Positions 5,985 through 21,679 of a stretch of 64,000 nt of DNA are shown in pieces; position 1 is the stretch's first letter; the number at the start of each line of letters is the position of its first letter. The position numbers and the translations under genes are program-made. The notes under the pieces are model-generated. The model did no database searches. It saw only the letters and a list, made by a program, of their open reading frames with translations, and was not told where the DNA came from. Source of the DNA: Spirosoma aerolatum (GTDB lineage Bacteria > Bacteroidota > Bacteroidia > Cytophagales > Spirosomataceae). The DNA is taken from assembly GCF_002056795.1 (NCBI RefSeq), contig NZ_CP020104.1, positions 248,001 through 312,000 on the forward strand, written 5' to 3'.

Positions 5985-6003
5985 ATAATAAATCTGCGTT
6001 CTA

Positions 6004-6888
6004 TCATGGAATAGCAACCTGATTCGCTTTGAGGACTTTACTGAAAAACAATACCTGATAGGGTAGGGCATTCTCCCAGTACTCCCAGGTATGGGCACCG
6101 GGCCGTTCGGTATAATCGTGTGGTGTTTTGTTTTCCATAAGTTGACGGTGTAAATCCCGGTTGCCCACAATCAGAAAATCATCCACACCAATATCGAAAA
6201 TGAGTGGTAACCCATTTTTCTTGAGCTGATCAGCCAGTGTAACCATCGTGTAGCCCGGATAAGGTGTGTCGCCTTCCTTCGGTGGGCCCAGTAACTTGGC
6301 AAAGTTTTCGGAGCGAGACTTAGCAAAATCAGCTTCAACTTTCCAGGTAGCCGTATTAATGTTCATGACCCCGCTCATGCTACCCGCAGCCGAATACAGA
6401 TCAGGGTGGCGGCTGGATATGAACATGGCTCCGTGGCCACCCATGCTTAGGCCCGCAATAACCCGACCTTTGCGGTCGCGGATGGTGCGGTAGGTATTGT
6501 CGATCCGGTCGATCAGCTCTTTGGAAATGAAGGTCTCGAACTGGCTGGTTTTGACGAGTGGGCTATCGAAATAGTAGCTGCCAGGGTCGCCATCGGGTGT
6601 AACAATGATTAGGTTGTACTGGTCAGCTAGCCTTTGTAATAGTTCTTTATCTGCCGGTTTGGTTAGCCAGTCGCGAAAACTGCCTTTACCCCCATGAAGC
6701 AGGTAAAGTACTGGAAAAGGTGTTGTATCGCGTTTCTTTGCGTGTATGTACCGTTCTGGTAGTACGACGGCTGCCCGAAGAGTTCGGTTCATGCTGGCGC
6801 TGGGAACATCCAAGGTATCGACCCTGGCGGCTCGAACCTGCATAGCCAGAAGGCAACCCAATGCGCTGATAAGAATTTTATTGTACAT
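6004..6888 (-). CDS. CE1/FrmB-like secreted esterase, tandem paralogue 1
   Basis: Alpha/beta hydrolase of the esterase D / feruloyl-esterase-like group (294 residues). The start is placed at the Met opening the signal peptide (MYNKILISALGCLLAMQVRA); the longer frame overlaps the upstream gene. Motifs seen: LYLLHGG oxyanion region at 61-67, GLSMGGHGA nucleophile elbow with Ser148, VDDFLI acid region, and GAHTWEYW with the catalytic His near the C-terminus. Family members hydrolyse aromatic-acid, acetyl or thiol esters; the substrate here is unknown. It is 11 bp from the next gene upstream, which encodes a close paralogue, so cotranscription is likely. Confidence 0.88.
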   Translation of the reverse strand: MYNKILISALGCLLAMQVRAARVDTLDVPSASMNRTLRAAVVLPERYIHAKKRDTTPFPVLYLLHGGKGSFRDWLTKPADKELLQRLADQYNLIIVTPDGDPGSYYFDSPLVKTSQFETFISKELIDRIDNTYRTIRDRKGRVIAGLSMGGHGAMFISSRHPDLYSAAGSMSGVMNINTATWKVEADFAKSRSENFAKLLGPPKEGDTPYPGYTMVTLADQLKKNGLPLIFDIGVDDFLIVGNRDLHRQLMENKTPHDYTERPGAHTWEYWENALPYQVLFFSKVLKANQVAIP

Positions 6889-6899
6889 GATAGGTTGGC

Positions 6900-7769
6900 T
6901 TATGGAGCTATCGATCCGTTTGCTTTCAATGCATTGCTGAAAAACAAGACGTGATTGGGTAATGAATTTTGCCAGTAGTCCCAACTATGGCCACCTGGGC
7001 GTTCGCTATAATCGTGGGGTGTCTGATTGAAAACCAGCCTTCGGTGAAGTTCCCGATTTGGCTCAATCAGGAAATCATCAACACCACAATCAACAATTAA
7101 TTTCTGATTATTGGCTTTTAGTTTGTCGGCCAGGTTAATGACCGAGAAAGCCGCGTAGGTTTGCGGCACCTGCTCAATAGGCCCTAGTATTTTCTCGAAT
7201 TCCAGTTTAATACCATTCATCATATCTGGGGGAAGTTTCCAGCTTTGCATATCGGGGTTGAGGGCGCCACTCATGCTACCGGCTGCACAGTAAAGGTCTG
7301 GATGACGGGCAGCCAGCAAAAGCGACCCGTAGCCCCCCATACTCAGGCCCGTAATGACCCGGCCTTTGCGGTCGCGGATGGTTCGATAGGTATTATCGAT
7401 CTTGCCAATTACCTCTTTAGTCAGATAGGTTTCGAACTGGCTGTCTTTTCGAACCGGGCTATCCAGATAGTAACTGAAAACTTCCCCTTCCGGCATCGCA
7501 ATGATGAGGTTATATTGATCGGCTAATCGCTGAATCAGATTCTTATCGGGCGTTTTGGTGAGCCAATCATTGAAATGACCATATCCGCCATGAAGCAGGT
7601 AAAGCACTGGATAATTCGCCTTGCTTTTCGCGTAGCTTTCGGGCAATACGACTACCGCCCGCATGGACTTTTGCATAACAGCACTCGGCACATCCAGCGA
7701 ATCGACTTTAGCCGCCCAGGCAGACAATGTTGCAAAAAGGCTAAGGCCGAAAAGAAGCGTTTTGATCAT
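6900..7769 (-). CDS. CE1/FrmB-like secreted esterase, tandem paralogue 2
   Basis: 289 residues with an N-terminal signal peptide (MIKTLLFGLSLFATLSAWA). It carries the same motif set as its two neighbours: LYLLHGG, GLSMGGYGS around the catalytic Ser, VDDFLIEPNRELHRRL, and GGHSWDYW with the catalytic His. The paralogues share long identical stretches such as NTYRTIRDRKGRVI, which indicates tandem duplication. Fifteen bases separate it from paralogue 3 and 11 from paralogue 1, so the three look like one transcript. Likely periplasmic or outer-membrane-associated acyl esterase; actual substrate not deducible. Confidence 0.87.
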   Translation of the reverse strand: MIKTLLFGLSLFATLSAWAAKVDSLDVPSAVMQKSMRAVVVLPESYAKSKANYPVLYLLHGGYGHFNDWLTKTPDKNLIQRLADQYNLIIAMPEGEVFSYYLDSPVRKDSQFETYLTKEVIGKIDNTYRTIRDRKGRVITGLSMGGYGSLLLAARHPDLYCAAGSMSGALNPDMQSWKLPPDMMNGIKLEFEKILGPIEQVPQTYAAFSVINLADKLKANNQKLIVDCGVDDFLIEPNRELHRRLVFNQTPHDYSERPGGHSWDYWQNSLPNHVLFFSNALKANGSIAP

Positions 7770-7784
7770 ATGTTTCCGTGAAAT

Positions 7785-8681
7785 TTACTGAGCTATTGTG
7801 CCATTCGCTTTCAAAACCTTCTGAAAAAACAGCAGATGATAAGGGAGCGAGTTTTGCCAGTACTCCCAGGTATGGCCGCCCGGATGCTCGGTATAATCGT
7901 GCTCTACTTTGCTGTAGACCAATCGACGGTGCAGTTCACGGTTTGGCTCGATCAAAAAATCATCGACACCACAGTCAATAATAATCTTCTGACCATTGGC
8001 TTTGATTTTATCGGTCATGTAAACGACTGAATTGGCTGCGTACTGGTCGGGTGTTGCCCCCAGCGGGCCTAAAATCCGGGTGAATCCTTCTTCTACCCGT
8101 TTCTCGAAAGTTGGATCGATGCGCCATGTTTTGTAATTCAGATCGACAGCACCACTCATGCTACCAGCCGCACAATATAATTCAGGGTGGCGCGTAGCTA
8201 AATACAATGCCCCATGTCCGCCCATACTCAGACCCGAAATGACCCGTCCTTTGCTATCGCGGATGGTTCGGTAGGTATTGTCAATTTTGCCGATTACTTC
8301 TTTGGTCAGGTAGGTTTCAAACAGGTTGTCTTTCTGGGTCGGACTGTCCAGATAACCACTGAGTCGATCACCTTCCGGCATTACAATAATGAGGTTATAC
8401 TGATCGGCCAGTTTGTGGATCAGCATTTTGTCGGGCGTTTGCTTGAGCCAGTCGCTAAACTGCCCACCTCCGCCATGCAATAGGTACAGAACTGGATACG
8501 GAGTTTTACTCTTCGCATATGATTCGGGAAGCACAACGGCTGCCCGCATGGCCCGATTCATAGCTGTGCTTGGTACCTCCAGCGTATCGACTTTAGCGCT
8601 GAAAGCCAGCCCTGGTAAGGCGAGTAGACTAAGATAAATGAAGAAATGAATTACGCGCATGGACATCATTTGATAGGACAC
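7785..8681 (-). CDS. CE1/FrmB-like secreted esterase, tandem paralogue 3
   Basis: 298 residues as drawn. The signal sequence begins at MRVIHFFIYLSLLALPG, so translation may start at one of the inner Met codons (residue 5, 6 or 8). Motifs: LYLLHGGGG, GLSMGGHGALY with the catalytic Ser, VDDFLIEPNRELHRRL, and GGHTWEYW. It is the first gene of the leftward esterase cluster and starts opposite a Nudix-type regulator gene. That layout suggests the regulator controls it. Known relatives include feruloyl and acetyl-xylan esterases and S-formylglutathione hydrolase; the signal peptide argues against the last. Confidence 0.87.
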   Translation of the reverse strand: MSYQMMSMRVIHFFIYLSLLALPGLAFSAKVDTLEVPSTAMNRAMRAAVVLPESYAKSKTPYPVLYLLHGGGGQFSDWLKQTPDKMLIHKLADQYNLIIVMPEGDRLSGYLDSPTQKDNLFETYLTKEVIGKIDNTYRTIRDSKGRVISGLSMGGHGALYLATRHPELYCAAGSMSGAVDLNYKTWRIDPTFEKRVEEGFTRILGPLGATPDQYAANSVVYMTDKIKANGQKIIIDCGVDDFLIEPNRELHRRLVYSKVEHDYTEHPGGHTWEYWQNSLPYHLLFFQKVLKANGTIAQ

Positions 8682-8686
8682 ATGGG

Positions 8687-8699
8687 TTCAATTTGAACA
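8687..8699. promoter_or_regulatory. Palindrome in the esterase/regulator divergent gap
   Basis: Perfect 6-bp arms around one central base (GTTCAA-T-TTGAAC), six bases upstream of the outermost esterase start on the leftward strand. The position fits an operator for the divergent NrtR-type regulator, but no family consensus was compared. Confidence 0.3.
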
Positions 8700-8798
8700 G
8701 GCTTTGAGGTAGGCTCGCAAATAATAGTATCTTTATGTCAAAAGTACGCAAAGATGGATTACATCAGCAGAGTAACTGTATTTTTGTTGTAAAATTTT

Positions 8799-9530
8799 AT
8801 GATCGATTATAACCATCCGGCGTTTCAGTATTATCAGAATGTATCGGAACAATGCATTCATTACCTGTCGATCGATGGGGTCATCTTTGGGTTTCACCAG
8901 AACCAGCTCAAGGTTTTGCTGTTACGTTGGAAAGGTACGGATGAGTGGAGCCTGCCGGGAGGCTTCATTCTGAAAGCGGAATCGGTCGATCTGGCTGCTC
9001 AGCGAATCATTCGCGAACGGACGGGTCTGCAGACACTTTATCTGCAACAGTTTCATGTGTTTGGCGAAACGATTCGGTATGATCAGGAGGAAACCTGGCG
9101 GAAAATAAATTTACCCGTTCAGGGCATCAACTGGTCAGAACGGACTATCTCTATCGGCTATTATGCCCTGGTTGAATACGCTGAGGTTGTTCCTACTCCC
9201 GACTTTCTGACCGAAGAATGCCGCTGGTGGAGTTTGGAGGCCATTCCGAATTTACTTTTTGACCACAACCATATTGTTGACGTGGCCTTGCAGTCGTTAC
9301 GAAAAAATGTAAGCGATCAACCCATTGGTCATCTATTGCCCGAAACATTTACTATTCCCGAACTCCAACGGTTGTACGAAACTATTCTGGGACATTCATT
9401 GGACGCCCGAAATTTTTACAAGAAAATTATGGCGCAGGACAATCTGGAACGCCTTGCCGAACGACGAGCCGGAACCCCGCATAAGGCACCATATCTATAT
9501 CGGTTTAAGCTGTCACCTTCTGGTGTATAA
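8799..9530 (+). CDS. Nudix-related transcriptional regulator (NrtR type)
   Basis: 243 residues. The N-terminal half is a Nudix fold (about 20-150); a C-terminal winged-helix region (about 160-235) contains FTIPELQRLYETILG and ends NFYKKI, as in NrtR regulators. The Nudix box at 55-77 is degenerate: GGFILKAE is kept, but the catalytic RExxEE glutamates read RIIRER. It is therefore probably a sensor, not a hydrolase. In Bacteroidetes such proteins (e.g. AraR of Bacteroides) control sugar use by binding sugars or nucleotides. It is divergent from the five-gene esterase cluster, its likely target. Confidence 0.83.
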   Translation: MIDYNHPAFQYYQNVSEQCIHYLSIDGVIFGFHQNQLKVLLLRWKGTDEWSLPGGFILKAESVDLAAQRIIRERTGLQTLYLQQFHVFGETIRYDQEETWRKINLPVQGINWSERTISIGYYALVEYAEVVPTPDFLTEECRWWSLEAIPNLLFDHNHIVDVALQSLRKNVSDQPIGHLLPETFTIPELQRLYETILGHSLDARNFYKKIMAQDNLERLAERRAGTPHKAPYLYRFKLSPSGV

Positions 9531-9709
9531 CCACATTCATTCCTACGCCTGAGCGCTCATCTATACGGTTCATTGACGGGTTTTCCAATTCAGCCAATTC
9601 CTGTATGGCTCACCCACTTTTTGAGGTAATTTTTGTGTCATCGACTAGGGTTTAGTTTAATACATAGAATCAGCTAGTTATCAATAAACGTATATAGATA
9701 GCGTTAGCG

Positions 9710-9974
9710 ATGAGAATTGCTCGACTCGAACTGGAAACGAATCAATTAGGTGCTAAAGATCAATTCTATTCCCAGCAATTGGGGGTACGGGCTGACTCAG
9801 TTTTCTAAAAGTAAATCAATGCCTGATTTCTCTGCTATTGGTAATGATTATGGTTTGCTCATTCTGGCTAAAACAGGACGACTGTGGCAGTTTACCGACC
9901 GTAAGGCGATGCCGTCTCGCTGGCGTATGGAATTTATCGACTCAAACGGAAATCTCATATGGATTAAGTCTTAG
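9710..9974 (+). pseudogene. Decayed VOC/glyoxalase-family gene
   Basis: A short frame from the ATG encodes MRIARLELETNQLGAKDQFY...LGV, the typical first strand and helix of a VOC-superfamily protein, and stops after 32 codons. A second frame continues with PDFSAIGNDYGLLILAKTGR and WQFTDRKAMP, which resembles the family's C-terminal strands. The VOC fold needs about 110-130 residues; here about 80 remain and the middle is missing. This indicates an internal deletion plus frame loss. The original substrate is unknown. Confidence 0.6.
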
Positions 9975-10198
9975 GTTAAATGATAATTTAACTGTTTGAT
10001 AGTTAGACGGTTGTCTTTTTATTTGGTGAGTAATTGATAATTTTCTTAACGTAGCTGATAGTTACATACTATTTTCCCTTATCCGCTTATGGATAAAAAT
10101 AACCTTTCGTCTGAATAGACGACTATTTGGCTTTAGGGTCTTGTCTTTTGGCTAAAAAACGGTTCTCAACCAGTCAGTTTACAACGCCAAATACTACT
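9975..10198. other. AT-rich intergenic stretch, nothing recognised
   Basis: The gap between the VOC remnant and the next gene is AT-rich. It contains no open frame with recognisable content, no tRNA and no strong palindrome. It presumably carries the promoter of the small secreted protein that follows. Confidence 0.4.
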
Positions 10199-10597
10199 AT
10201 GAACACGTTACTCAAGACCCTGCTTCTGACGTTTCTTGTCAGCTCTACTGCATTGGCCGATCCTGGCAAAACGTCCGGTAAAAAAGATCACCCTACCAAA
10301 CTGGCTCGCTATCAGGTTGGGACGTACATTACGGTTATGCAGAAGCTTCGCGTCAACATCGATAAGCAGTTGGGGGGCGAAGTATCCATCAAACTGACCG
10401 ACGCCAAAGGAACCCTGTATTACGCTCATACACTCACAGCTGTTGATACCATAGCCCGGCTGAGCCTGGATCTGAGCGATCTGAACGAAGGAGAGTACCA
10501 GCTAAAAATATCGAATGGGCTGGAAATGGAAGTCCGGGATATTAAAATCAGCGCAAAAGAGCCTGTGGTTCAGGCCCGCAAGTTAACCGTCTTATAA
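10199..10597 (+). CDS. Small secreted beta-sandwich-like protein
   Basis: 132 residues from the Met that opens a signal peptide (MNTLLKTLLLTFLVSSTALA); an upstream in-frame Met would add 24 residues before it. The mature part has a strand pattern with KLRVNIDKQLGGEVSIKLTDAKGTLYY and LNEGEYQLKISNG. This recalls the beta-sandwich modules (DUF3244 or T9SS sorting-domain-like) of secreted Bacteroidetes proteins. No catalytic motif is visible. It lies alone, followed by a perfect 20-bp inverted repeat. Function unknown. Confidence 0.65.
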   Translation: MNTLLKTLLLTFLVSSTALADPGKTSGKKDHPTKLARYQVGTYITVMQKLRVNIDKQLGGEVSIKLTDAKGTLYYAHTLTAVDTIARLSLDLSDLNEGEYQLKISNGLEMEVRDIKISAKEPVVQARKLTVL

Positions 10598-10629
10598 AAT
10601 TCTCTGCTTAACCAACGTCAGGAAGCAGC

Positions 10630-10683
10630 CCATGCTGATTGCGGTATACTAGGCATGTAACCTGTATACCGCAATCAGCATGG
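10630..10683. terminator. Perfect 20-bp inverted repeat, terminator-like
   Basis: Arms 10630-10649 and 10664-10683 are perfectly complementary around a 14-nt loop. They sit downstream of the small secreted protein gene and upstream of the AraC-type gene. There is no T-run after the stem, so it may end transcription only weakly or act as an RNA structure. Confidence 0.5.
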
Positions 10684-10750
10684 TTGCCAGTCTTCTTCTC
10701 ATCCGTATTTCCGGTTTAGTCTATCATCGGTTAATCAGTTACTATTTCTA

Positions 10751-11917
10751 ATGAAAGAACCAAATCTTGATCATTGGACAACTGCGTTTGCTGTTATTGC
10801 TTTTCTGGGCTTGTTTGTAGCGCCTTTGCTACTGATTCAGGCTGGACAGCGTAAGAGTCAGGTTCAGTATATTGTGGGTATTGTTGTCCTGTTTTCGATC
10901 ATGCTGATTTACTACGTTCTGTTCTGGAGTGAGTATATCCGTCTATTCCCCTACCTGATCGGCACGGTTGATCTATTCTTTTTCCTGTTTGGGCCTTTAT
11001 TCTACCTATATCTTAAAGACTTGGTGAACCAGCCCATAACAGGTCGAAAGCGGATGCTTCATTTTTTGCCGTTTTTCATTGGGCTAGCCGCCGACCTGAC
11101 CGTGCTGGTGGCTCGTATGCAGTATCCGGAATTGTGGGGTCGCCCTGCCCGAATACCTGTCTGGGGAGCTTATTTTAAAGTACTGCCCTGGTTGTATTTA
11201 GTTCAACTGGGTTTGTATGCTATGGCTATCCTACGACTACAGCAATCGTTCAGTAGTTTACAAAAAGTGGGTCGATGGGCGTTGTGGGTAAGCTTGTGTT
11301 ATCTGGGGTTTGTATTGGCGAACTGGTCTTATTTCTTACTAGTCAGACTTCCATTCTTTAACCGGGCCTGGGATTATGGGATCTCGTTCAGTATGTCGGG
11401 GTTTATTGCCCTGGTTGTTGTGCTGGCCTATGTGCAGCCGCATATCTTTCAGACCAATGAATTCCCGGTTTTTGAAGCAGAGCCTAAAGAAGAACCCGAC
11501 GCCCGATACCGTCATTCTGGATTGCCGCCCCATCTGGCCCGTCATTTTGCCAATCAGCTTCAATTGCTGATGCATACCGAAAAGCTATATCAACAGAATG
11601 AGTTACGTCTGGATACGCTGGCCGATCGACTATCCATCAGTCGCCATCATTTATCGCAGGTAATCAACGAGCAACTGGGTATGAGTTTTTTTGAGTACGT
11701 CAATTCGTTGCGGGTCGAAGAGGCAAAAACGTTGCTGGCTCAGGTATCACGACGGGAATTGAACGTGATTGAAGTGGCCTATCAGGTTGGTTTTAACAAT
11801 AAAGTATCGTTTAACAAAGCCTTCAAACGGGCTACTGGCCGAACACCCAGCGAATTTCGACAAACGATGCAGGCGAAGCCTAGATGCGATCCGCACGACC
11901 AGCTTGAGGATGCCTAA
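10751..11917 (+). CDS. Membrane-anchored AraC-family transcriptional regulator
   Basis: 388 residues. The N-terminal half (about 15-245) has seven or so hydrophobic helices and no enzymatic motif. The C-terminal about 100 residues form a double helix-turn-helix of the AraC family: LADRLSISRHHLSQVINEQLG and VIEVAYQVGFNNKVSFNKAFKRATGRTPSEFR. This 7TM-plus-AraC layout is common in Bacteroidetes and is assumed to couple a membrane-perceived signal to transcription. It lies 158 bp upstream of the cas operon on the same strand, so it could regulate that operon; this is inference only. Confidence 0.85.
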   Translation: MKEPNLDHWTTAFAVIAFLGLFVAPLLLIQAGQRKSQVQYIVGIVVLFSIMLIYYVLFWSEYIRLFPYLIGTVDLFFFLFGPLFYLYLKDLVNQPITGRKRMLHFLPFFIGLAADLTVLVARMQYPELWGRPARIPVWGAYFKVLPWLYLVQLGLYAMAILRLQQSFSSLQKVGRWALWVSLCYLGFVLANWSYFLLVRLPFFNRAWDYGISFSMSGFIALVVVLAYVQPHIFQTNEFPVFEAEPKEEPDARYRHSGLPPHLARHFANQLQLLMHTEKLYQQNELRLDTLADRLSISRHHLSQVINEQLGMSFFEYVNSLRVEEAKTLLAQVSRRELNVIEVAYQVGFNNKVSFNKAFKRATGRTPSEFRQTMQAKPRCDPHDQLEDA

Positions 11918-11994
11918 ATGTGGTAATGTTTATCAGAGTTACCGTTTACTACTCCATAATTCGGTTGATTTAGCAAGGTTTTATAGCCTATAGG

Positions 11995-12075: not shown

Positions 12076-13938
12076 ATGATTAAATCATTGTACATAGCCG
12101 GAAAATTGCTTGCTCAGTTGGACGATTATAAAGACTATTTTCGACCCTGGGCCAATCCATTTCCGACCTGGCAAGGCGTCGCGCAGGTGATTGTTGCTGA
12201 TATTCACGATGGTCAGTTACTGCCCGAATTGTCGGTAGAAGCGTTTAATCCTGACTGGGTTGATCGGTATCTGTTCCGGGAAGCAAAAGCCAATGCGACA
12301 AACCTGGTTCCGACCTTGTACCTGCATACGCAACCAACTACGGAGAAGCAATTGGAAAGCATCCGTACGATGGTAAAAAAAATCCGGCAATCTGTTAAAA
12401 ACTATCAGCACGATTTTATCCGTGAAAGTCAGATTGACGACATTGAACAGAGGCTACGGTTGCTTCCATTCGATGATACAGTTAAATATCTATTTACGAT
12501 CCGGCTCAACGGGCGCTACTTTGGAGATGATGAAAAATACCGGGCTCTTTTTTTGAACGACCGGATGCCCTATGCTACCTACTGGCGGAAGTCGAGGGCT
12601 AACAACAAGGTATGTGCCGTTAGCTACGAACCGGTTTCCGAAGTGTGGGGGCGGGTAAATACGTTGGGGTTTACGGTCGAAAAACCTGCATTTTCACGGA
12701 ACGGATTCGATGGCGAATATTCGTATAAGATGTTTCCGGTATCGCCCGATGCGGTGAAACGGCTGGAAGGGGCTAAACGACTGATACTTGAACGACTGGC
12801 CCGCCCCTTTTTCGGCATGAAGTATCTGATCATGCCCCGCTTTTTCGATTCCGTTCCCGATGAACAGGCATCGCAGTTTTTAGCCAGTTTCCTGCGGTCG
12901 TCAGGTACCGTAACAGCCAGCGTTCAGTCGATGTATGCCTTTATCGACCAGGTAGAGTTAGCCGATACTCACACAGTCACTCGTTTCGTCGATAATGAGC
13001 CGGTATATTATGACATTTTCTTTTACGAGGAGAAACAGGCTCAGTTCGCAATCAAATTGCAGGTGGCGAATATTCTGCCCGCCCGTTTCAGACAGATCAT
13101 TGCCGTCAAAAATTCTGTTGAACTAAGTTATCAAGGCTTAACAGGGCCAGTTAGTCTGATGCAGGCAAACCCTGAACCGCTCAGGATTTCCCTGGCTTCG
13201 ATCAAGGATTATTTTGCCGAACAGGTTAAGGTAAAAGGAAAAGACAAATGGCTCTTTCACTCGGGCTTTTTTCACGTCGTTGACGCTATTTTCTACAACC
13301 AACCGCTAAACCGGGAGCAGCTTCTTCGCGCTTTTATGACTCCGATTCGGGCAGCTTTCAAGGGCAATGATGCCAGTGCTTATCTGGTTAATCGACAGAT
13401 CCGGCATTCGTTTGTATTGCTTCAATTTTTCTATCAACTCAATCTTTTTTCTTTTTCTAACATGAAACCTGCTATGCCACAATCCGTTGGGCTGATTCCC
13501 GAAACGTTCGAACGTCAACACCCCGATCTGCTGGCTCATCCCCTTCGGCGAGCAGCTTTTTACCTGGGTTGTGAGGTTGAGCTACTGCTGGCCAAGCAAA
13601 AAAGCTTTTACCGAAATCAGCCGTTTCGCCAGTATCTGAATGGACTGAATCTGGACGTTGACCAACTTCGAAAAATTCACCTCAAACTGACGGCTAAAAT
13701 TGGGGAGTATATGAATACAGGAATAAACGATAAGCGACATTTCTATCCAGCCGAACTAGCCCGGCTGGCCGAGTTGGATACACATATTGGCCCTGCGCTT
13801 CTGCTAGCCGATAACAGCCTGTCGAAAACCGAAATATCGTATTCGTTTGCGGTGGGTATGGCAATGCAAAAAGCATTTACAATAGAGCAGATTCGGAGTA
13901 ATCGACTGAAAAAGACAGTGTCTGGGCCAACGGCATAA
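12076..13938 (+). CDS. cas8b: Type I-B Cascade large subunit, Cas8b (Csh1/TM1802-like)
   Basis: 620-residue cytoplasmic protein. The assignment rests on position directly before cas7 and cas5, on length (family about 500-650) and on an N-terminus (IKSLYIAGKLLAQLDDY) resembling Csh1/TM1802 proteins. In type I-B the large subunit recognises the PAM and helps recruit Cas3. I see no nuclease motif (no HD, HNH or DEAD-box) and no membrane segment. Four bases separate its stop from cas7, so the genes are cotranscribed. Cas8 proteins diverge strongly, so subtype is less certain than role. Confidence 0.75.
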   Translation: MIKSLYIAGKLLAQLDDYKDYFRPWANPFPTWQGVAQVIVADIHDGQLLPELSVEAFNPDWVDRYLFREAKANATNLVPTLYLHTQPTTEKQLESIRTMVKKIRQSVKNYQHDFIRESQIDDIEQRLRLLPFDDTVKYLFTIRLNGRYFGDDEKYRALFLNDRMPYATYWRKSRANNKVCAVSYEPVSEVWGRVNTLGFTVEKPAFSRNGFDGEYSYKMFPVSPDAVKRLEGAKRLILERLARPFFGMKYLIMPRFFDSVPDEQASQFLASFLRSSGTVTASVQSMYAFIDQVELADTHTVTRFVDNEPVYYDIFFYEEKQAQFAIKLQVANILPARFRQIIAVKNSVELSYQGLTGPVSLMQANPEPLRISLASIKDYFAEQVKVKGKDKWLFHSGFFHVVDAIFYNQPLNREQLLRAFMTPIRAAFKGNDASAYLVNRQIRHSFVLLQFFYQLNLFSFSNMKPAMPQSVGLIPETFERQHPDLLAHPLRRAAFYLGCEVELLLAKQKSFYRNQPFRQYLNGLNLDVDQLRKIHLKLTAKIGEYMNTGINDKRHFYPAELARLAELDTHIGPALLLADNSLSKTEISYSFAVGMAMQKAFTIEQIRSNRLKKTVSGPTA

Positions 13939-13941
13939 GGT

Positions 13942-14910
13942 ATGAGTACAATTCAAAATCGCAGTGAGATTCTGTTTTTATATGATGCCAAACGCTGTAA
14001 CCCGAACGGCGATCCGCTGGATGCTAACCGCCCTCGTATCGACGAAGAGTCGGGCTGTTGTCTGGTGACCGATGTACGGCTAAAACGCACCATTCGTGAT
14101 TACCTGCTCGATCATGGTTTTGATGGCGAAGCAGGCAGCAAAGGTGATATTTTTGTGCGGTCGGTGGGGGGGAAGGCGGTAACAGGGACCGAGCGGGCAA
14201 AGTCGTATAGTAACCGGGAAGAATATCTGCAAAAGTTCATTGATGTCCGGTTGTTTGGCGGAGTATCGGCACCGAAGGCCAGCCCGAAAGTTGGGAAGCA
14301 GGTCAGGGAAGTGTTTCTGGCTGAAGCAGGCATCGACCCGGAAGGCGGGGAGCCCGAAGAACCTGTCGACGCACACAAACTGTTTCATTTTACCGGCCCG
14401 GTGCAGTTTGGTATGGGGCGGTCGCTGAATCGCGTTCAGGAAACGTTTATGAAAGGGACCGGAGCGTTTGCTACCAAGGAAGAGTCGATCCAGAAAACGT
14501 TTCGGGAGGAATACATCATCACCTATGGCCTGATTGCCTTTCATGGGGTGATCAATGAACAGGCTGCCAAATATGTCGGAACTACAGATGAGGATGTTGC
14601 TCAATTAACCGAGGCCATCTGGTACGGCACTAAAAGTCTGCTTACACGTTCTAAAAAAGGACATATGCCCCGCTTGCTGGTCAAGATCGATTATAAAGGC
14701 GGCTTCTTTATCGGGGACCTTATTGAACGACTCCAACTGATTCCTAAAGCCGGTAAACGGGAGGATTCCTATGGTGATATTACCGATTTTACAGTCGATA
14801 GCTCACAGCTAGTGGCCGTTCTGACAAAATATGCCGACCGGATCGAACGCATATCCGTGTTGCAGGACGACCGTATTCAACTCTCCGACCCAATTCTGAC
14901 CAAACCATGA
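13942..14910 (+). CDS. cas7: Type I-B Cascade backbone subunit Cas7 (Csh2)
   Basis: 322 residues, usual for Csh2/Cas7 of type I-B. The diagnostic N-terminal motif is clear: LFLYDAKRCNPNGDPLDANRPRID at about 11-34, then TDVRLKRTIRDYL. Also FHFTGPVQFGMGRSLNRV, as in Cas7 family proteins. Several Cas7 copies polymerise along the crRNA and form the backbone of the interference complex. The stop overlaps the cas5 start (ATGATGA), indicating translational coupling. Confidence 0.92.
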   Translation: MSTIQNRSEILFLYDAKRCNPNGDPLDANRPRIDEESGCCLVTDVRLKRTIRDYLLDHGFDGEAGSKGDIFVRSVGGKAVTGTERAKSYSNREEYLQKFIDVRLFGGVSAPKASPKVGKQVREVFLAEAGIDPEGGEPEEPVDAHKLFHFTGPVQFGMGRSLNRVQETFMKGTGAFATKEESIQKTFREEYIITYGLIAFHGVINEQAAKYVGTTDEDVAQLTEAIWYGTKSLLTRSKKGHMPRLLVKIDYKGGFFIGDLIERLQLIPKAGKREDSYGDITDFTVDSSQLVAVLTKYADRIERISVLQDDRIQLSDPILTKP

Positions 14911-15623
14911 TGAGTCGGCAAATCCTGATTTTTGACATTTGGGGTGATTACGCTCATTTTAAGAAAATTTACGCGACTACCTCCGCTGTTTCCTATGCCA
15001 TTCCGCCAAAAACGTCTCTGTATGGCTATCTGGGGGCTGTGCTCGGATTATCAAAAATTGACAGCGCCTACCTGAATACATTTGCCAATAAGCAATGCCT
15101 GCTGGGCATTTCAGTACGTAATCCAATCGTGATGAAGCGGTTAGGCGTCAACTTGAGATCGACGCTCAAACGCGTCGACGATAGTGCCAAGCCTTCGCTG
15201 GTCGAATATGTGTATAAGCCCCGTTATCGGTTGTTCGTATGGCATCAGGACGAAACCGTTCTGCAGACATTGAAAAAGGCAATCAAATCCCATACTTGTG
15301 TCTATACGCCTTCGCTTGGTCTGGCGGATTTGCCGTCCAATTTCGAATGGATAGGAGAGGTCACGGTAAAGGCGCACCGATCGGCAGACACCGTTGCGAT
15401 TCATTCAGTCATTCCACGGAAATATCTGCTGGGTCTGGAGGAAACCGCTTTGCTGGAAGGCAGGAATGAACTCATTGAACAGAGCTTGTTTGCCATCGAA
15501 ATGAATACCGATCGGGAGGTTACCGAACGCGACGATATACTGCTGGATCGTAAAGGAAGGCCGATTTGGGCGCGGGTTACCGAGTATTATCCGGTTAAGG
15601 AAGCTAATGTTATTCTTTTCTGA
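14907..15623 (+). CDS. cas5: Type I-B Cascade subunit Cas5
   Basis: 238 residues with the conserved Cas5 N-terminus: ILIFDIWGDYAHFKKIYATT and the SYAIPPKTSLYGYLGAVLGL block at about residues 29-48. Cas5 is a RAMP protein that caps the 5' handle of the crRNA and links Cas8 to the Cas7 backbone. It overlaps cas7 by four bases; an alternative start is the second ATG three bases on. In complete type I-B loci cas3 usually follows cas5; here cas6 follows instead. Confidence 0.9.
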   Translation: MMSRQILIFDIWGDYAHFKKIYATTSAVSYAIPPKTSLYGYLGAVLGLSKIDSAYLNTFANKQCLLGISVRNPIVMKRLGVNLRSTLKRVDDSAKPSLVEYVYKPRYRLFVWHQDETVLQTLKKAIKSHTCVYTPSLGLADLPSNFEWIGEVTVKAHRSADTVAIHSVIPRKYLLGLEETALLEGRNELIEQSLFAIEMNTDREVTERDDILLDRKGRPIWARVTEYYPVKEANVILF

Positions 15624-15634
15624 CTTCGCTGATT

Positions 15635-16399
15635 ATGGCCACCCAGACATTGATTCCGCAAACGACAATCACCTTCCCGGAAATTACGCTCCATACACAT
15701 GATGCCCATAAACTGCGTGGGTATTTCGGGGAACTGTTTCGAGACTATTCGCCCCTGCTGCATAATCATCTTCAGACCGATGATGAGTCAGCAACAGATG
15801 CCATTCGGTTTCGCTATGCGTATCCATTGGTTCAGTACAAGGTGTTGAGACATATACCGACACTGGTTGGATTTGGGGAGGGGGCTAAGTTACTTGCCCA
15901 GCTTTTTCTTCAGGTTTCTACATTGTCGATCAATGGCAAACTTATCCCGGTTCATACCAGGCATATCCGTTGCGAACAGGTTCCCATCGGTATGGCCGAT
16001 GAGTTGCTTGAATACAACTTTGTAACGTTGTGGATGGCACTCAACCAGGCGAATTACCGCGATTATCGACGATATTCGGATGCTGGCCGGGCGGCACAGC
16101 TAAAGCGCGTCTTTACCAGTCAGATACTGGCCACCTTTCGGACATTTGGGTTATGGCTATCCCTCCACGAGCGATTGAGGGTGCATTTGTCGCTGGACGA
16201 GCGGGCCACTCAATTTAAAAACCAGCGTATGGTAGCCTTTTCCGGCCGTTTTCTAGCCAATGTTGTCCTACCCAATGGACTTGGCTTAGGCAAAGGCGTG
16301 TCTCGTGGCTTCGGTAGTGTAGAACGGTATGTACATAGTGATCAGCCAAATCGGCTTGTCACCCGCATGCATGACACATCCTGGCAACCACGCTCATAA
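15635..16399 (+). CDS. cas6: CRISPR-associated endoribonuclease Cas6
   Basis: 254 residues. The pattern matches the Cas6 form found with type I-B loci in Bacteroidetes: HKLRGYFGELF near residues 26-36, SPLLHNHL, FRYAYPLVQYKVL, and the glycine-rich RNA-binding loop GLGLGKGVSRGFGSVERY near the C-terminus. Cas6 cleaves precursor crRNA within repeats and often stays bound to the 3' hairpin. His residues in LLHNHL are candidate catalytic residues, by analogy. It is eleven bases behind cas5 and the last gene of the operon. Its presence implies that a CRISPR transcript exists, or existed, in this genome. Confidence 0.85.
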   Translation: MATQTLIPQTTITFPEITLHTHDAHKLRGYFGELFRDYSPLLHNHLQTDDESATDAIRFRYAYPLVQYKVLRHIPTLVGFGEGAKLLAQLFLQVSTLSINGKLIPVHTRHIRCEQVPIGMADELLEYNFVTLWMALNQANYRDYRRYSDAGRAAQLKRVFTSQILATFRTFGLWLSLHERLRVHLSLDERATQFKNQRMVAFSGRFLANVVLPNGLGLGKGVSRGFGSVERYVHSDQPNRLVTRMHDTSWQPRS

Positions 16400-16623
16400 A
16401 CTATACATGGATATAGAACGGTAGAGGGGAATGTGGTGTCGGTTACTAATAACCGAACCAGACAAACCGTTCGGTTTTGAGAAACCTTACCAAGGCCAGA
16501 TTTGAGCATCTAGCCACACCTCACTCTAACTGGACAAAACGCTGTCATTGAACTAACTCAAACAACGTCTAAAACTTGACAAACCTAACGTTGTCAGATG
16601 CTCACATCCGACACCACAAAGCA

Positions 16624-16717
16624 GCATCCATTCAAAAGCAGGATTGAAGCATATCCATTTAATCTCTTAAAAAGAGTGATTTTTTAGAGGTATCCCCGTT
16701 GAAGTAGGGTTGAAAAA
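16624..16717. repeat. Possible degenerate CRISPR repeat pair
   Basis: Two 28-nt segments starting at 16624 and 16690 agree at 18 positions without gaps. They begin gcATCC/gtATCC and end GGATTGAAGC/GGGTTGAAAA. That end resembles the ATTGAAAC-type handle of many type I-B repeats, and the 66-bp period equals a usual repeat plus spacer. No third unit is in register on either side. The match was found by eye and may be chance. Confidence 0.25.
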
Positions 16718-16728
16718 TGGAATTAGGT

Positions 16729-16786
16729 GGAGGGTTATTTTCGAAACAGCAGTGGCTGGTTTGGAAATAGCCCTCCTTGGTTTTTT
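16729..16786 (+). terminator. Terminator-like hairpin behind the cas operon
   Basis: A 14-nt arm (GGAGGGTTATTTTC) pairs at 12 positions with 16763-16776 around a 20-nt loop, followed after four bases by six T. It fits factor-independent termination of the rightward cas transcript or an attenuator ahead of the SusC gene. Confidence 0.45.
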
Positions 16787-16987
16787 GCACAAACGGTCAG
16801 TCAATCATAAAAGCGATAACCTTTATCGGGATTACCCTGGGCCACCTGCTTACGCGCGTCCTTTGGATGGATTGTAGGGCTGCTGTCCGACGCATGGGTT
16901 CAGAGATTTACCTACGGATTCGTGAGCTTCCCGTTCGGATAGCCGCCATTTTATTGATTTTTCTATGTTTCAATCTTTACTCAAAAC

Positions 16988-19900
16988 ATGAAGTTCACGT
17001 TCATCACAAGCTGGTTGCTGGTCCTGTTCGTTTGTTGTACAGTATCAGCGCAGGATGTTAACGTCAGTGGTCGTGTTACGTCATCCGACGATGGCCAAAC
17101 GCTGCCCGGTGTAAGCATTCAGGTAAAAGGAACCACAAAAGGTACTACCACAGATGCCAATGGTCAGTATCAGATCAGTGCGCCAGCCAATGGTCGGCTG
17201 ATTTTTAGCTTTATCGGCTATGCTAGTCAGGAAGTTGCCGTTGGCAATCAATCGACCATTAATATCGCTTTAGTCACTGGCGCGCAAAGCCTGGACGAAA
17301 TTGTCGTAACAGCTCAGGGGATTGAGCGCGACAAGCGTTCGCTGGGATACGCAACTCAGGAGGTTAGTGGTAATATTCTGGCGCAGCGATCGGAGCCAAA
17401 CCTGCTCAATGCCTTACAGGGCAAGCTGGCGGGGGTTAACATAACCGCAGCCAGTGGCGCACCCGGAGCCTCGACCAACATCAACATTCGGGGTATTACC
17501 TCATTTACGGGAAGCAACCAGCCACTCATTGTTGTGGATGGAATTATCTTCAGCAACGATGTTAACCTGACCCAGAACACGCTGTTCGGTACGCAGCCTG
17601 CCAATCGGCTGGCCGATATTAACCCCGAAAGTATTGAGTCGGTCAACGTGCTGAAAGGTCCGGCGGCTGCGGTTCTATACGGTTCGCGTGCATCGGCCGG
17701 AGCAATTGTGATTACGACCAAATCGGGCCGAAACCAGAATAACAAGACGGAGGTGACCGTCAACTCATCGTTCAATGTGCAGAATGTATATGGCCTGCCT
17801 CGTTTCCAGAACGAGTACGGTCAGGGGGCCAATAACCTGTTTGTGTCGAATTCGACCAACTCCTGGGGACTACCGTTTGCGGGTGGGCCTACGTCGGTAA
17901 CCAATACGCAGGGCAATACAGTGCCGTATCAGGCATATCCCAACAACGTAAAGGATTTTTATCGGCAGGGAAGCATCCTTCAGAATTCGGTCAACATTGC
18001 CTCGGGCGACGCTAACCGAAATTACATTATTGCCATTGGTAATACTTTACAGAACGGTATCATCCAGAATTCAAAGTTTAATCGAACCAATGTGCAGCTA
18101 GGTGGGGAATCAAAGCTGCAAAACGGGCTACGCATTAGCGGGACCGGAACCTATGTACAGACGGTATCGACCGGGATTCCAGGTGGGAATGGAGCCAGCG
18201 CTTTTGGGCAAATAACCCGGATACCACGTAGTTACGATCTGGCGAATGAGCCCTATCAGGATGCTAATGGCCGGAGTATTTATTATTCTACGACCAACAA
18301 TAACCCGCAATGGAGCGTAAATAATGAAAAGCTGGATAGTCAGGTAGACCGTTTCTTTGGCAATTTTCAGATTGGTTATGACATCACAAGCTGGCTGAAT
18401 GTAGCCTACCGCGTAACGGGCGACACGTATACCGACCGACGTAAACTCACCCTGCCCATTGGGGCCGGACGTTCGCCAGCCGGAGAAATTCAGCAGGACA
18501 ACTTCTTCCGCAATGAACTCAACGGCGATCTATTGATATCGGCCCGTAAAGACAATCTGTTTGTGGAAGGACTGAATGCGAATCTGTTGTTAGGGAACAA
18601 TGTTAACCAGCGCAAAACGCAGGAAGTACTGGTCGATGCCTCGTCGCTGACCATTCCCGGTTTCTACAATGTGGGCAACGGTACTGTATTTACGGCTGGG
18701 ACTGGCACGGGTGAGTTTAGTACCGCCCGTCGGCTCATAGGGTACTATGGGCAGTTATCGCTGAATTATAACAATTACCTCTTCCTCGAACTATCGGGCC
18801 GGGCTGATAAATCGTCGACATTACCACAGGCCAATAACACGTACTTCTATCCATCGGTAGCCCTCAGCTTTGTGCCAACGGATGCGTTTAAGCTCAATTC
18901 GGATATTCTCTCCTACGCGAAAGTTCGGGCTAGTATCGCTCGCGTAGGTCGCGATGCCGATCCGTATTTGCTTACATCAGTATATACCGGAGCTGCCTAT
19001 GGAAACAACACAGCGAATATTACTTTCCCGCTTCAGGTCAGTAACGGGAGTATTCCGGGTTTTGTGGTAAGCGGCCGAATCGGGAACAATAACCTGACGC
19101 CCGAGTTTGTCACGTCGTATGAAGTGGGTCTGAATCTGGGTTTATTCAAGAATCGGTTTAGCATTGATGCATCCTACTTCGATACCCGGAGTACTAACCA
19201 GATTTTTAACGTAGCGATTGCGAATACAACGGGCTTCGATACGCGTACTACCAACGTCGGTGAGCTACGGAATCAAGGAGTTGAGGTTGTTCTGAATGCT
19301 ACACCCGTGCGGTTCAGTGGTTTTAAATGGGATCTTTCGCTCAACTACACCTTAATCCGCAATAAAGTCATCTCGATTGCGCCGGGTGTTAAATCTTCGT
19401 CGGTGGGTAGCTCAGCCACCAACCTGGTTGGGTCGGGGGCCAATGCGTTTACAGGTATTACCCCTTCTATCTACGAAGGCTATCCGTATGGTGTCGTTGT
19501 CGGTACAGCCAATGCCCGTGTACAGAATACCGATCCGAACGGCTTGTATTATGACCCAACCGGGCAATACGTAGGTCAATATGTGGTCAATGGCACCTCG
19601 GGTCAGTTTGCCCCCGGTATTGCCAATTCGGTCATTTCCAATCCGCAACCAAACTACATCGCCGGTCTGACCAACACGTTTTCGTATAAGGGAATAGCAC
19701 TGTCGGTGCTGATCGATACGCGTCAGGGGGGCCAACTGTACTCATTCCCGATGGTCGATCTACGGGGTAATGGTTCGCTGTACGTGACTGGGCAGGATCG
19801 GGATCAACCCCGCATTTTACCCGGTGTGATTCAGAATGCCGACGGGACTTTCCGACCCAACAACATTCAGCTGAGTTCACAGGCGTACTGGGGCGGAACG

Positions 19901-20191
19901 GGCTTTACTGGATTGGGTGGACTGGCTTCCGAAGCAGCCGTCTTCGATGCTACAGTATATCGTCTGCGTGAAGTGGCCTTGAATTACACCTTACCAAAAG
20001 GCTTGTTAGGGAAAACACCCTTCGGCTCGATCTCGGTGGGTGTCAGTGGTCGGAACCTGTATTTCTATGCGCCGAATTTCCCGGCCGATCCTGAAATCAA
20101 CACGCAGGGAGCCGGTAACATTCAAGGCCTTGATCTGAACGGTCCACCAAACACCCGCAATTTCGGTGGCAATATCCGACTAACGTTCTAA
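16988..20191 (+). CDS. SusC/RagA-family TonB-dependent outer-membrane receptor
   Basis: 1067 residues. Signal peptide at 1-21, a carboxypeptidase-regulatory-like domain at about 24-105 (VNVSGRVTSSDDGQTLPGVSIQVKGTTKGTTTD is its start), a plug domain at about 110-240 with the SusC signature VLKGPAAAVLYGSRASAGAIVITTK, then a long barrel ending in RLTF. SusC proteins import glycans or other large nutrients with the paired SusD lipoprotein, powered by TonB. The SusD gene follows 24 bp on. No polysaccharide-degrading enzyme or sigma/anti-sigma pair is adjacent, so the cargo is open. Confidence 0.95.
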   Translation: MKFTFITSWLLVLFVCCTVSAQDVNVSGRVTSSDDGQTLPGVSIQVKGTTKGTTTDANGQYQISAPANGRLIFSFIGYASQEVAVGNQSTINIALVTGAQSLDEIVVTAQGIERDKRSLGYATQEVSGNILAQRSEPNLLNALQGKLAGVNITAASGAPGASTNINIRGITSFTGSNQPLIVVDGIIFSNDVNLTQNTLFGTQPANRLADINPESIESVNVLKGPAAAVLYGSRASAGAIVITTKSGRNQNNKTEVTVNSSFNVQNVYGLPRFQNEYGQGANNLFVSNSTNSWGLPFAGGPTSVTNTQGNTVPYQAYPNNVKDFYRQGSILQNSVNIASGDANRNYIIAIGNTLQNGIIQNSKFNRTNVQLGGESKLQNGLRISGTGTYVQTVSTGIPGGNGASAFGQITRIPRSYDLANEPYQDANGRSIYYSTTNNNPQWSVNNEKLDSQVDRFFGNFQIGYDITSWLNVAYRVTGDTYTDRRKLTLPIGAGRSPAGEIQQDNFFRNELNGDLLISARKDNLFVEGLNANLLLGNNVNQRKTQEVLVDASSLTIPGFYNVGNGTVFTAGTGTGEFSTARRLIGYYGQLSLNYNNYLFLELSGRADKSSTLPQANNTYFYPSVALSFVPTDAFKLNSDILSYAKVRASIARVGRDADPYLLTSVYTGAAYGNNTANITFPLQVSNGSIPGFVVSGRIGNNNLTPEFVTSYEVGLNLGLFKNRFSIDASYFDTRSTNQIFNVAIANTTGFDTRTTNVGELRNQGVEVVLNATPVRFSGFKWDLSLNYTLIRNKVISIAPGVKSSSVGSSATNLVGSGANAFTGITPSIYEGYPYGVVVGTANARVQNTDPNGLYYDPTGQYVGQYVVNGTSGQFAPGIANSVISNPQPNYIAGLTNTFSYKGIALSVLIDTRQGGQLYSFPMVDLRGNGSLYVTGQDRDQPRILPGVIQNADGTFRPNNIQLSSQAYWGGTGFTGLGGLASEAAVFDATVYRLREVALNYTLPKGLLGKTPFGSISVGVSGRNLYFYAPNFPADPEINTQGAGNIQGLDLNGPPNTRNFGGNIRLTF

Positions 20192-20215: not shown

Positions 20216-21679
20216 ATGAACTCACTGAATTATAGACGCTACCTGTTGCTGCCCCTATTTCTGGGAATGGGTGCCTGTAGCAATTTTCTGGATATAAATG
20301 TTACGCCCAACAACCCAACAGCCGTAACACCCGCTGTATTGTTGCCGGGAGCGCAGGCGGGTACGGCCTTCGCGGAATCCAACGAGATCAATCGGTTTGC
20401 CGAAACACTGGTTCAGCATCTGGCCGGAGCGAACAATAGCCCTGCCAATTATGATGTGTTTCAGACAAATGGAGCCGATATGGAAAACCAGTGGCGTTTT
20501 GAAATTTATAACGGTGGCCTTATCAATTTCCAGAAGCTGATCGAACTGGGCGATGCGACTAACTCAAAGGCTTATACGGGTATTGCCAAAATCATGAAGG
20601 CGTATACCTTCTCGATTGCGACAAATATGTGGGGTGATGTCCCATATTCGCAGGCACTACAGGGCGAAGCGTTCACGGCTCCCCGTATCGATAAGCAGGA
20701 GGATATCTATAAAGGGAACTCATCGCAGGGTATTCAGAGCCTGTTCGATTTGGTACGCGAAGGCATCAAAGACCTGGATGCGCCTTCGGCGTTAAAACCC
20801 GGTGGTGAAGATTTGATTTATGGAGGTGATCTGGCAAAGTGGAAGCGGGCTGGCAATAACCTACTCCTCAAGTTTGCGACCGTAATCAGCCGTAAAGAAC
20901 CGGCACTAGCCACCAGCGTCATTAACGAGGTACTGGCGGGTAATAACTACATTACGACCAACGCCAACGACATGAACTTTACGTTTGGATCGACAGTCGG
21001 TAGCCAGGACCCGCGTTACAGCTACACCAATGTCAGCACGTTTAAAGACGATATTATTCTCAGTACGCGGTACCTGAACCTGCTGAAAAGCCTGAACGAC
21101 CCTCGGTTGCCGATCTTCTTCACCAAGCCCGGTGCCGACTACGTAACCATCGACAATGGGTTTCGGGGGACATTGCCCGCGCCCGTAACCAACTGGTCGC
21201 GATATAATAAGTTCATTACGGGCAATTCGGGTGAAGGCCCCGTACGGATGACCACCAATTTTGAACGGGCGTTCATCCTGGCTGAAGCGGCCCTGCGTTT
21301 AGGCACACCCGGCGATCCACAGGCTCTCTATACTGAAGGCATCACCGCATCCTTGTCGTTGGCTGGCCTGTCTGCCGATCAGATCACTACCTATTTGGCT
21401 GCCAACCCAACTGTAGCGACTCTTTCGGGTACCAACGAACAGAAAATCGCCCAGATCATCACCCAGAAGTACATCGCCTGGACCGGAAATGGACTCGAAG
21501 CCTGGAATGATTACCGTCGGACTGGATACCCCGTTCTGCAACCTTCCCAGAATGCGGCCGGTATCGATGGTACCCGACCCGTTCGGGCCGTGTATATCAA
21601 TACCGAAATTCAACGGAATCCTAATTTCCCGAACCCCGCTCCCCAGTCGAACGTACGGGTGTGGTGGGATGTGGATTAA
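20216..21679 (+). CDS. SusD/RagB-family nutrient-binding lipoprotein
   Basis: 487 residues. The signal peptide ends in a lipobox (FLGMGAC, Cys near residue 21), so the mature protein should be lipidated and surface-exposed. The N-terminus CSNFLDINVTPNNPTAVTP and the C-terminal block WTGNGLEAWNDYRRTGYPVL are typical of the SusD-like group with TPR-like helices. It caps the SusC barrel encoded just upstream and binds the imported substrate. Cotranscription with its neighbours is likely from the short gaps (24 and 29 bp). Confidence 0.93.
   Translation: MNSLNYRRYLLLPLFLGMGACSNFLDINVTPNNPTAVTPAVLLPGAQAGTAFAESNEINRFAETLVQHLAGANNSPANYDVFQTNGADMENQWRFEIYNGGLINFQKLIELGDATNSKAYTGIAKIMKAYTFSIATNMWGDVPYSQALQGEAFTAPRIDKQEDIYKGNSSQGIQSLFDLVREGIKDLDAPSALKPGGEDLIYGGDLAKWKRAGNNLLLKFATVISRKEPALATSVINEVLAGNNYITTNANDMNFTFGSTVGSQDPRYSYTNVSTFKDDIILSTRYLNLLKSLNDPRLPIFFTKPGADYVTIDNGFRGTLPAPVTNWSRYNKFITGNSGEGPVRMTTNFERAFILAEAALRLGTPGDPQALYTEGITASLSLAGLSADQITTYLAANPTVATLSGTNEQKIAQIITQKYIAWTGNGLEAWNDYRRTGYPVLQPSQNAAGIDGTRPVRAVYINTEIQRNPNFPNPAPQSNVRVWWDVD

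Follow-up and report, generated by a model that had tools for sequence, protein, structure and literature searches.

The described RNA-guided repressors closest to the locus reported here are CreA/CreTA, CreR and TldR. The locus is a type I-B CRISPR (clustered regularly interspaced short palindromic repeats) operon of Spirosoma aerolatum, cas8b-cas7-cas5-cas6, with a small repeat-spacer-repeat unit behind cas6. It lies in a 64,000-nt stretch of a one-contig 7.96-Mb genome (C1:248001-312000; hereafter the window), and coordinates given without a contig or locus name refer to this window. We consider it probable that operon and unit form one transcription unit encoding a type I-B Cascade without Cas3 and with one hard-wired CRISPR RNA (crRNA), which would repress other susC genes at their promoters or leaders.

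In the haloarchaeal type I-B system CreA/CreTA, a crRNA-like unit with two degenerate repeats guides Cascade without Cas3 cleavage and pairs at nt 1-5 and 7-11 beside a protospacer-adjacent motif (PAM) at a promoter (PMC8501985, PMC9458426). In CreR, a crRNA-like RNA and Cascade likewise act as repressor (PMC12737573). The Spirosoma unit resembles both in its single spacer flanked by two degenerate repeats outside a CRISPR array, and comparable binding and repression are predicted. CreA, however, is coupled to a complete defence system and keeps a toxin repressed, whereas the present locus lacks cas3 and cas1 and is predicted to target receptor genes. The target of CreR is the cas promoter, whereas no full-seed match was found upstream of cas8b here. 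TldR proteins are nuclease-dead, TnpB-like RNA-guided repressors; their guide lies beside an alternative surface-protein gene and they repress the promoter of a homologous gene (PMC13418256). The absent nuclease and the place of the guide are alike here, and the predicted susC repression would be the counterpart of the third feature. TldR belongs to the unrelated TnpB-like family and is prophage-borne in the flagellin clade, whereas the effector genes here, cas8b-cas7-cas5-cas6, encode a four-protein chromosomal Cascade. Among the titles listed from the open-licence PMC literature, there was no report of a Cas3-less Cascade regulator, of CRISPR in Spirosoma or of Cascade with SusC.

An intact type I-B operon without cas3 and cas1

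All four genes are on the + strand and have open frames: cas8b (12076..13938, TM1802/Csh1 family, 620 aa; PF09484 1.2e-62, PADLOC Cas8b 1.8e-59), cas7 (13942..14910, Csh2, 322 aa; TIGR02590 5e-75), cas5 (14907..15623, Cas5b, 238 aa; TIGR02592 1.2e-27) and cas6b (15635..16399, 254 aa; PF17262 1.7e-31, PF17955 1.6e-22). Pfam and PADLOC both assigned cas8b, cas7, cas5 and cas6, so the type I-B effector set Cas8b-Cas7-Cas5-Cas6 is present. In NCBIfam, cas7 and cas5 were above cut-off, cas8b was below its cut-offs and cas6 had no match. A preliminary description of the window had reported four tightly packed genes. They are indeed packed and intact, with intergenic gaps of 3, -4 and 11 bases; only the first gap had been given differently, as 4.

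Cas8b matches (E <= 1e-3) were found in 17 of 200 genomes of the family and 6 of 36 of the genus. The neighbourhoods of 12 of the 17 were compared (S. aerolatum and 11 others; G002, G029, G031, G045 and G078 were left out). The operon without cas3, together with the repeat-spacer-repeat unit, occurred in four of the 36 Spirosoma genomes, each time beside a susCD pair. The carriers are S. aerolatum, G161 (locus L027, Cas8b 92% identical), G176 (S. panaciterrae, L028, 86%) and G121 (L034, 62%). In the first three, the operon is flanked by the same AraC gene on one side and by susC on the other; L034 has it next to the susC orthologue, in divergent orientation.

The eight related full loci compared (L029-L033, L035-L037) all contained cas3. 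Seven had the order cas8b-cas7-cas5-cas3-cas6, with cas1 next in six, and six had an array (L030-L032, L035-L037); the contig of L029 stops directly behind cas3. From this gene order, the orphan operon equals a full operon minus cas3 and minus the genes behind cas6. The earlier statement that cas6 is normally at the opposite operon end thus does not hold for these relatives. The type I-B systems of Rhabdobacter, Dyadobacter and Arcicella (L030-L033) illustrate the difference: their cas8b-cas7-cas5 and cas6 are homologous and identically ordered, but cas3 stands between cas5 and cas6 in 4/4, and cas1 was recognised in 3/4 and an array in 3/4. The relatives have standard operons, but the S. aerolatum copy carries no inactivating mutation.

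As described earlier, the window contains neither cas3 nor cas1. The only Cas1 of the genome (at 2.527 Mb) and its only Cas3 above cut-off both lie about 2.3 Mb away. No regular CRISPR array was found in the window, a tandem-repeat search included. The locus thus lacks the cas3, cas1 and array of a defence system. Ten neighbouring open reading frames (ORFs) between 4443 and 25885 contained no cas or transposition domain in Pfam, which agrees with the reported absence of cas2, cas4, tnsABCD and tniQ; the rest of the window was not searched for these genes. A type I-B CRISPR-associated transposon is not indicated: no tnsABC or tniQ was found among the ten neighbour ORFs, the AraC gene and susCD, farther positions not being searched. 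A search for copies found none on viral contigs and one match of 21% identity on plasmids; the phage record collection was not searched.

The genome search proposed in the preliminary description revealed a complete system at 2.52-2.53 Mb, not just outside the window. It carries the genome's one Cas1 and one above-cut-off Cas3 and contains cas6, a 476-aa ORF in the cas8 position (no Pfam match), a DevR-type cas7, cas5 (below the Pfam cut-off), cas3, cas4, a 209-aa ORF, cas1 and cas2. In its array, 54 copies of the repeat reach >=60% identity, and 52 of these are exact over 30 nt. This system is a different branch from the orphan operon. The 209-aa ORF (L009:12493-13122) lies between cas4 and cas1, overlaps cas4 and has no Pfam match; by eye we take it to be kinase-like (HRDLK-type motif).

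The orphan Cascade might serve immunity in trans, taking Cas3 and crRNAs from the complete system. Cas3 (TIGR01587, E <= 1e-20) was found in 23 of the 36 genus genomes, with one in S. aerolatum, one in G161 and two in G176. G121, a 99% complete genome, had no Cas3 match at E <= 1e-20, searched with the TIGR01587 profile only, and this carrier keeps the operon all the same. Moreover, the repeat of the complete system's array differs from that of the orphan unit, its Cas6 belongs to another Pfam family, and the unit retains a repeat core of its own, with spacer bases 1-20 nearly fixed. We regard immunity in trans as very unlikely.

The dN/dS check on the four genes (ratio of nonsynonymous to synonymous substitution rates), also proposed earlier, was run among S. 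aerolatum, G161 and G176. The values were 0.095-0.139 for cas8b, 0.052-0.063 for cas7, 0.045-0.097 for cas5 and 0.093-0.107 for cas6, an overall range of 0.045-0.139, indicating purifying selection on the operon. Synonymous divergence (dS) was saturated for the four cas genes between S. aerolatum and L034. The neighbour genes were under tighter constraint: 0.007-0.014 for susC, 0.020-0.033 for susD, 0.028-0.043 for araC and 0.035-0.056 for nudix. Together with retention of the operon in four species and the lack of a Cas3 match in G121, these values bear out the earlier suggestion of a selected, binding-only complex that may block transcription.

Residues invariant in full-system relatives were counted as kept or lost in all four orphans, using three to six full-system relatives per protein and excluding residues kept in only some orphans. 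Cas6 kept 75 and lost 0 of the residues invariant in five relatives. The kept/lost counts were 98/6 for Cas7, 88/24 for Cas5 and 130/140 for Cas8b. An alignment of 12 Cas8b sequences had 43 invariant columns. These data bear on the possibility that the operon is what is left of a decaying full system and that its conservation is residual. The cas dN/dS values are several times that of the neighbouring susC, the repeats of the unit are degenerate, and the 140 changed Cas8b residues are invariant in four full-system relatives; the fast evolution of Cas8b may have other causes. Decay agrees poorly with frames that are open in four species despite saturated dS between S. aerolatum and G121, with the conserved spacer nt 1-20, and with a Cas6 in which no residue invariant in full relatives was lost in all four orphans. 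A remnant is unlikely in our judgement.

The Cas8b structure model (mean predicted local distance difference test score, 64.5) matched a 582-aa chain of a type I-C Cascade entry (E 2.7e-7, template modelling score 0.43), probably Cas8 judging by its size. A sequence search of the PDB with Cas8b gave no match; for Cas7 it gave 7xz3 Csh2 (2.9e-37). Cas7 has a ~33-aa insertion after RLFGGVSA that is missing from Dyadobacter-type Cas7. It was rejected as an orphan hallmark, being present in 97 of 120 homologues among the matches listed (query included). The Cas7 search returned many homologues at 60-94% identity, including S. gilvum, S. harenae and S. areae. The orphan Cas6 is 69% identical to the Cas6 of L036 (G004), another I-B branch, whereas Cas8b is only 23% identical; this disparity suggests a mosaic origin of the operon.

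A degenerate repeat-spacer-repeat unit behind cas6

Behind cas6, at ~16620-16716, all four carriers have a repeat core, a spacer, a second repeat core and then a hairpin. The preliminary description, and the repeat finders as well, had missed this unit. In S. aerolatum, repeat 1 is a 25-nt core ending in ATTGAAGC (16626..16650, + strand) and matches at 19/20 scored positions. The spacer-like guide of ~30 nt follows (16651..16680, + strand; seed ATATC-C-ATTTA). It is identical at 30/30 positions in L027 and 29/30 in L028, and at 17/20 over nt 1-20 in L034. Repeat 2 (25-nt core, 16692..16716, + strand) matches at 16/20 scored positions. A terminator-like hairpin lies at 16729..16776 on the + strand, with a T-rich tail to ~16787 (-31.8 kcal/mol, z-score -6.3). 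The hairpins at the matching place in L027, L028 and L034 had z-scores of -7.7 to -7.8 (-6.28 to -7.82 for all four), and that of L034 is unrelated in sequence. Instead of near-identical repeats with variable spacers, the unit thus has two degenerate repeats and a conserved spacer.

In ungapped comparison between S. aerolatum and G121, repeat 1 was identical at 17/25 positions, spacer nt 1-20 at 17/20, spacer nt 21-41 at 6/21 and repeat 2 at 20/25, whereas the flanks were near chance (14/60 in the 60 nt upstream and 22/60 downstream). The full I-B system in G004 has an array repeat similar to this repeat core (ATCC...AAAGCAGGATTGAARC). At <=2 mismatches the core occurs once in the S. aerolatum genome (as repeat 1), and G161 and G176 have one further match each. 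The earlier proposal that crRNAs come from an array elsewhere is therefore not upheld, the operon having its own mini-array, and the unknown effector considered at the same time is not needed. G121 has an extra repeat core (L034:16331-16355), 141 nt ahead of repeat 1, and may thus hold a second guide. RNAalifold proposed pairing of repeat 1 with the spacer; this pairing is broken in L034 and was not used.

The repeat period is 66 nt in S. aerolatum, L027 and L034 and 65 nt in L028, whereas related arrays mostly have 72-76 nt with 37-nt repeats. From this shorter period, we take the spacer to be ~30 nt rather than ~36. Interference by Haloarcula I-B dropped when the spacer was shortened from 36 to 28 bp, and a 24-bp spacer gave repression without interference (PMC10989794). 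The repeat core of L028 lies only ~36 nt behind cas6, which suggests that the unit is co-transcribed with cas6. The same distance bears on a CreTA-like addiction module, in which the guide would repress a nearby toxic RNA or small toxin. The architecture of two degenerate repeats is that of CreA (PMC8501985), but ~36 nt leaves little room for a toxin gene. No full-seed match was found in the intergenic regions adjoining the operon, where there is one 9-of-10 match (16414 in S. aerolatum); a creT-like RNA was not sought elsewhere. We consider such a module highly improbable.

Seed matches upstream of susC genes

CreA guides require a PAM and pairing at nt 1-5 and 7-11 (PMC8501985). The four carrier genomes were searched with the seed pattern ATRTC-N-ATTTA. 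We examined 120 of the 124 matches (omitted: G121:C44:154899, G161:C86:343938, G161:C89:17317 and the cas8b-internal G176:C14:116378). The units themselves account for four of the 120, leaving 116 for the tests. The starts of susC genes were identified via an N-terminal sequence motif.

TTA precedes eight of the 116 matches. Five of these eight lie 22-72 nt upstream of a same-strand susC start, with at least one per genome, whereas none of the other 108 is within 100 nt of a susC start (Fisher p 3.5e-7; this and the following p-values are optimistic because the susC class and TTA were recognised post hoc and the G161/G176 pair is orthologous). For non-coding sites only, the counts were 5/7 versus 0/23 (p 1.5e-4). 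The five sites are C1:3226682 in S. aerolatum, C10:167611 in G161, C4:111835 in G176, and C66:307452 and C77:268318 in G121. The remaining three TTA sites are one coding site in G176, one ~238 nt upstream of an opposite-strand susC in S. aerolatum, and one upstream of an unrelated ORF in G176. At seed position 3, guide and target agree: A in three guides and their targets, G in the G121 guide and its two targets.

TTA is the PAM of Parageobacillus I-B1 and fits YYD, the PAM class of T. maritima I-B1 (PMC13199841). Judging from its name, the TM1802 family probably includes the Cas8b of T. maritima I-B1. With the YYD class, 5/28 matches lie upstream of susC versus 0/88 (p 6e-4). Adding the own-genome base at seed position 3 gave 5/15 versus 0/101 (p 1.9e-5), and that base alone gave 5/59 versus 0/57 (p 0.03). 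The unit itself would be spared, since the adjoining AGC and AAC fall outside YYD.

As in CreA and CreR, a candidate PAM and the nt 1-5/7-11 match thus occur at a putative promoter or leader, at five sites in four genomes, the 10-nt match being set by the search design. At non-flipped positions of nt 1-17, the matches were 13/15 in S. aerolatum, 14/15 and 13/15 in G121, and 11/15 in both G161 and G176; the search pattern itself fixed 10 of the matching positions in each case. For both G161 and G176, the site falls within the 19 nt between TTG and TATTTTTG, a spacing that we take to be the layout of a Bacteroidota promoter. The S. aerolatum site is 6 nt behind a TAACTTTG box. In G121, the C66 site follows a TATCTTTG box and overlaps with the leader as far as the start codon; the C77 site has no such box nearby. 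The SusC at C66 is 71% identical to the window SusC. The target susCD pairs of S. aerolatum, G161 and G176 occupy one syntenic locus with flanking genes 97-99% identical (gyrB-like upstream). The S. aerolatum susCD there is a different allele (SusC 45-51%, SusD 51%), yet the site is present.

Near-complete protospacers in the four genomes (nt 1-20, <=2 mismatches) were limited to the units and control-level matches, and a search for viral protospacers found 2 IMG/VR contigs, about chance level by our estimate. The C-at-position-6 matches shared between genomes, units aside, were one coding group in three genomes and one S. aerolatum/G176 pair ~670 nt before a susC start; these were rejected as targets. 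A composition null for susC leaders comprised only 9 regions and was not relied on.

Apart from the post hoc nature of the p-values, several points weigh against the proposed repression of susC genes. Seed matches with C at position 6 numbered 31 versus 57 for the reversed-pattern control, and those with another base there numbered 93 versus 101, indicating no overall enrichment. In G161 and G176, pairing is weak past nt 11. The reading frame of the S. aerolatum target susC is broken into two (L233:6705-9880), the alleles in G161 and G176 being intact, so this target may be obsolete. A strict terminator scan called no terminator, the hairpin at 16729-16776 included. Finally, the operon itself has matches. 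S. aerolatum (at 12486), L027 and L028 share a full-seed match within cas8b, with TAA in front of it. Directly after cas6, S. aerolatum (16414) and L027 have a 9-of-10 match on the - strand, preceded by TCT, which belongs to the YYD class. Such matches leave room for autoregulation.

In CreR-like autoregulation, which is known for type I systems (PMC12737573), the guide would send Cascade to the cas operon itself, merely limiting its own expression. The cas8b site, however, is mid-gene, its TAA is outside YYD, and it is absent at the homologous place of G121; the match behind cas6 was not found in G121 either. The region upstream of cas8b has neither a full-seed nor a 9-of-10 match in any of the four carriers. 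We also reason that a stand-alone complex repressing only itself would bring no benefit. Autoregulation as the sole function is unlikely.

Neighbouring genes and proposed regulation

An operator-like motif, GRTAAY-N10-RTTAYC, was found upstream of cas8b (11922..11943, + strand) and upstream of the adjacent susC (16815..16836, + strand), both exact. In S. aerolatum, G161 and G176, zero-mismatch copies of GRTAAYNTTTATNRGNRTTAYC are limited to these two places, ahead of cas8b and ahead of the adjacent susC. G121 keeps the pair with 0 and 1 mismatch. The count in the window is not independent, because the motif was defined from these sites (the G121 copies were also seen then). At <=2 mismatches, further sites numbered 4 in S. 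aerolatum, 3 in G161, 3 in G176 and 4 in G121, near control counts. A one-mismatch copy is common to G000:C1:908964 (L129) and G176:C5:8049 (L130), ahead of a short stretch without a called ORF and with two terminator-like hairpins by eye, possibly a small RNA.

The neighbouring susC (16988..20191, + strand) encodes a TonB-dependent receptor with Pfam plug and barrel domains, and susD follows (20216..21679, + strand; PF12771 5.4e-70). An AraC-type regulator (10751..11917, + strand; HTH_18 6.9e-24) precedes the operon. Its gene adjoins the operon in three carriers and is <=8 kb away in the fourth, and the regulator is a candidate binder of the shared motif. The region before the operon (4443-11917) also encodes a carboxylesterase, three esterases of one Pfam family and an NrtR/NUDIX-type regulator. 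Since esterases and regulators precede the operon, the adjacent susCD may be part of a locus for polysaccharide-ester uptake. At 9531-10126 there is a degenerate remnant, where L027 and L028 hold an intact 215-216-aa ORF.

From these features, we propose that transcription would start upstream of cas8b and run through cas6 and the unit to the hairpin. The operon's own Cas6 would cleave both degenerate repeats, releasing a crRNA with a ~30-nt spacer. Upstream of susC genes, Cascade would then recognise sites where TTA precedes a match to seed nt 1-5 and 7-11. As the locus lacks cas3 and pairing is only partial, the complex would block RNA polymerase without cleavage, by analogy to CreA. The motif common to the cas operon and the adjacent susCD could switch both on, so that one receptor is made and others are silenced.

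A wider interpretation, on which we are evenly divided, is that a whole type I Cascade (proteins, one guide and a terminator, without nuclease or memory) has become a dedicated RNA-guided transcription factor. It would be co-induced with one SusCD and silence rival SusCs, guide and targets co-varying between species, and would be the Cascade counterpart of TldR. If so, a multi-protein CRISPR effector would have moved wholly out of immunity and would now regulate host genes through a fixed guide, and Bacteroidota would be able to swap surface receptors through natural CRISPR interference. SusC-type receptors import nutrients and are thought to act as phage entry points. Such a receptor switch could bear on diet and phage escape, and would provide a compact natural Cascade repressor.

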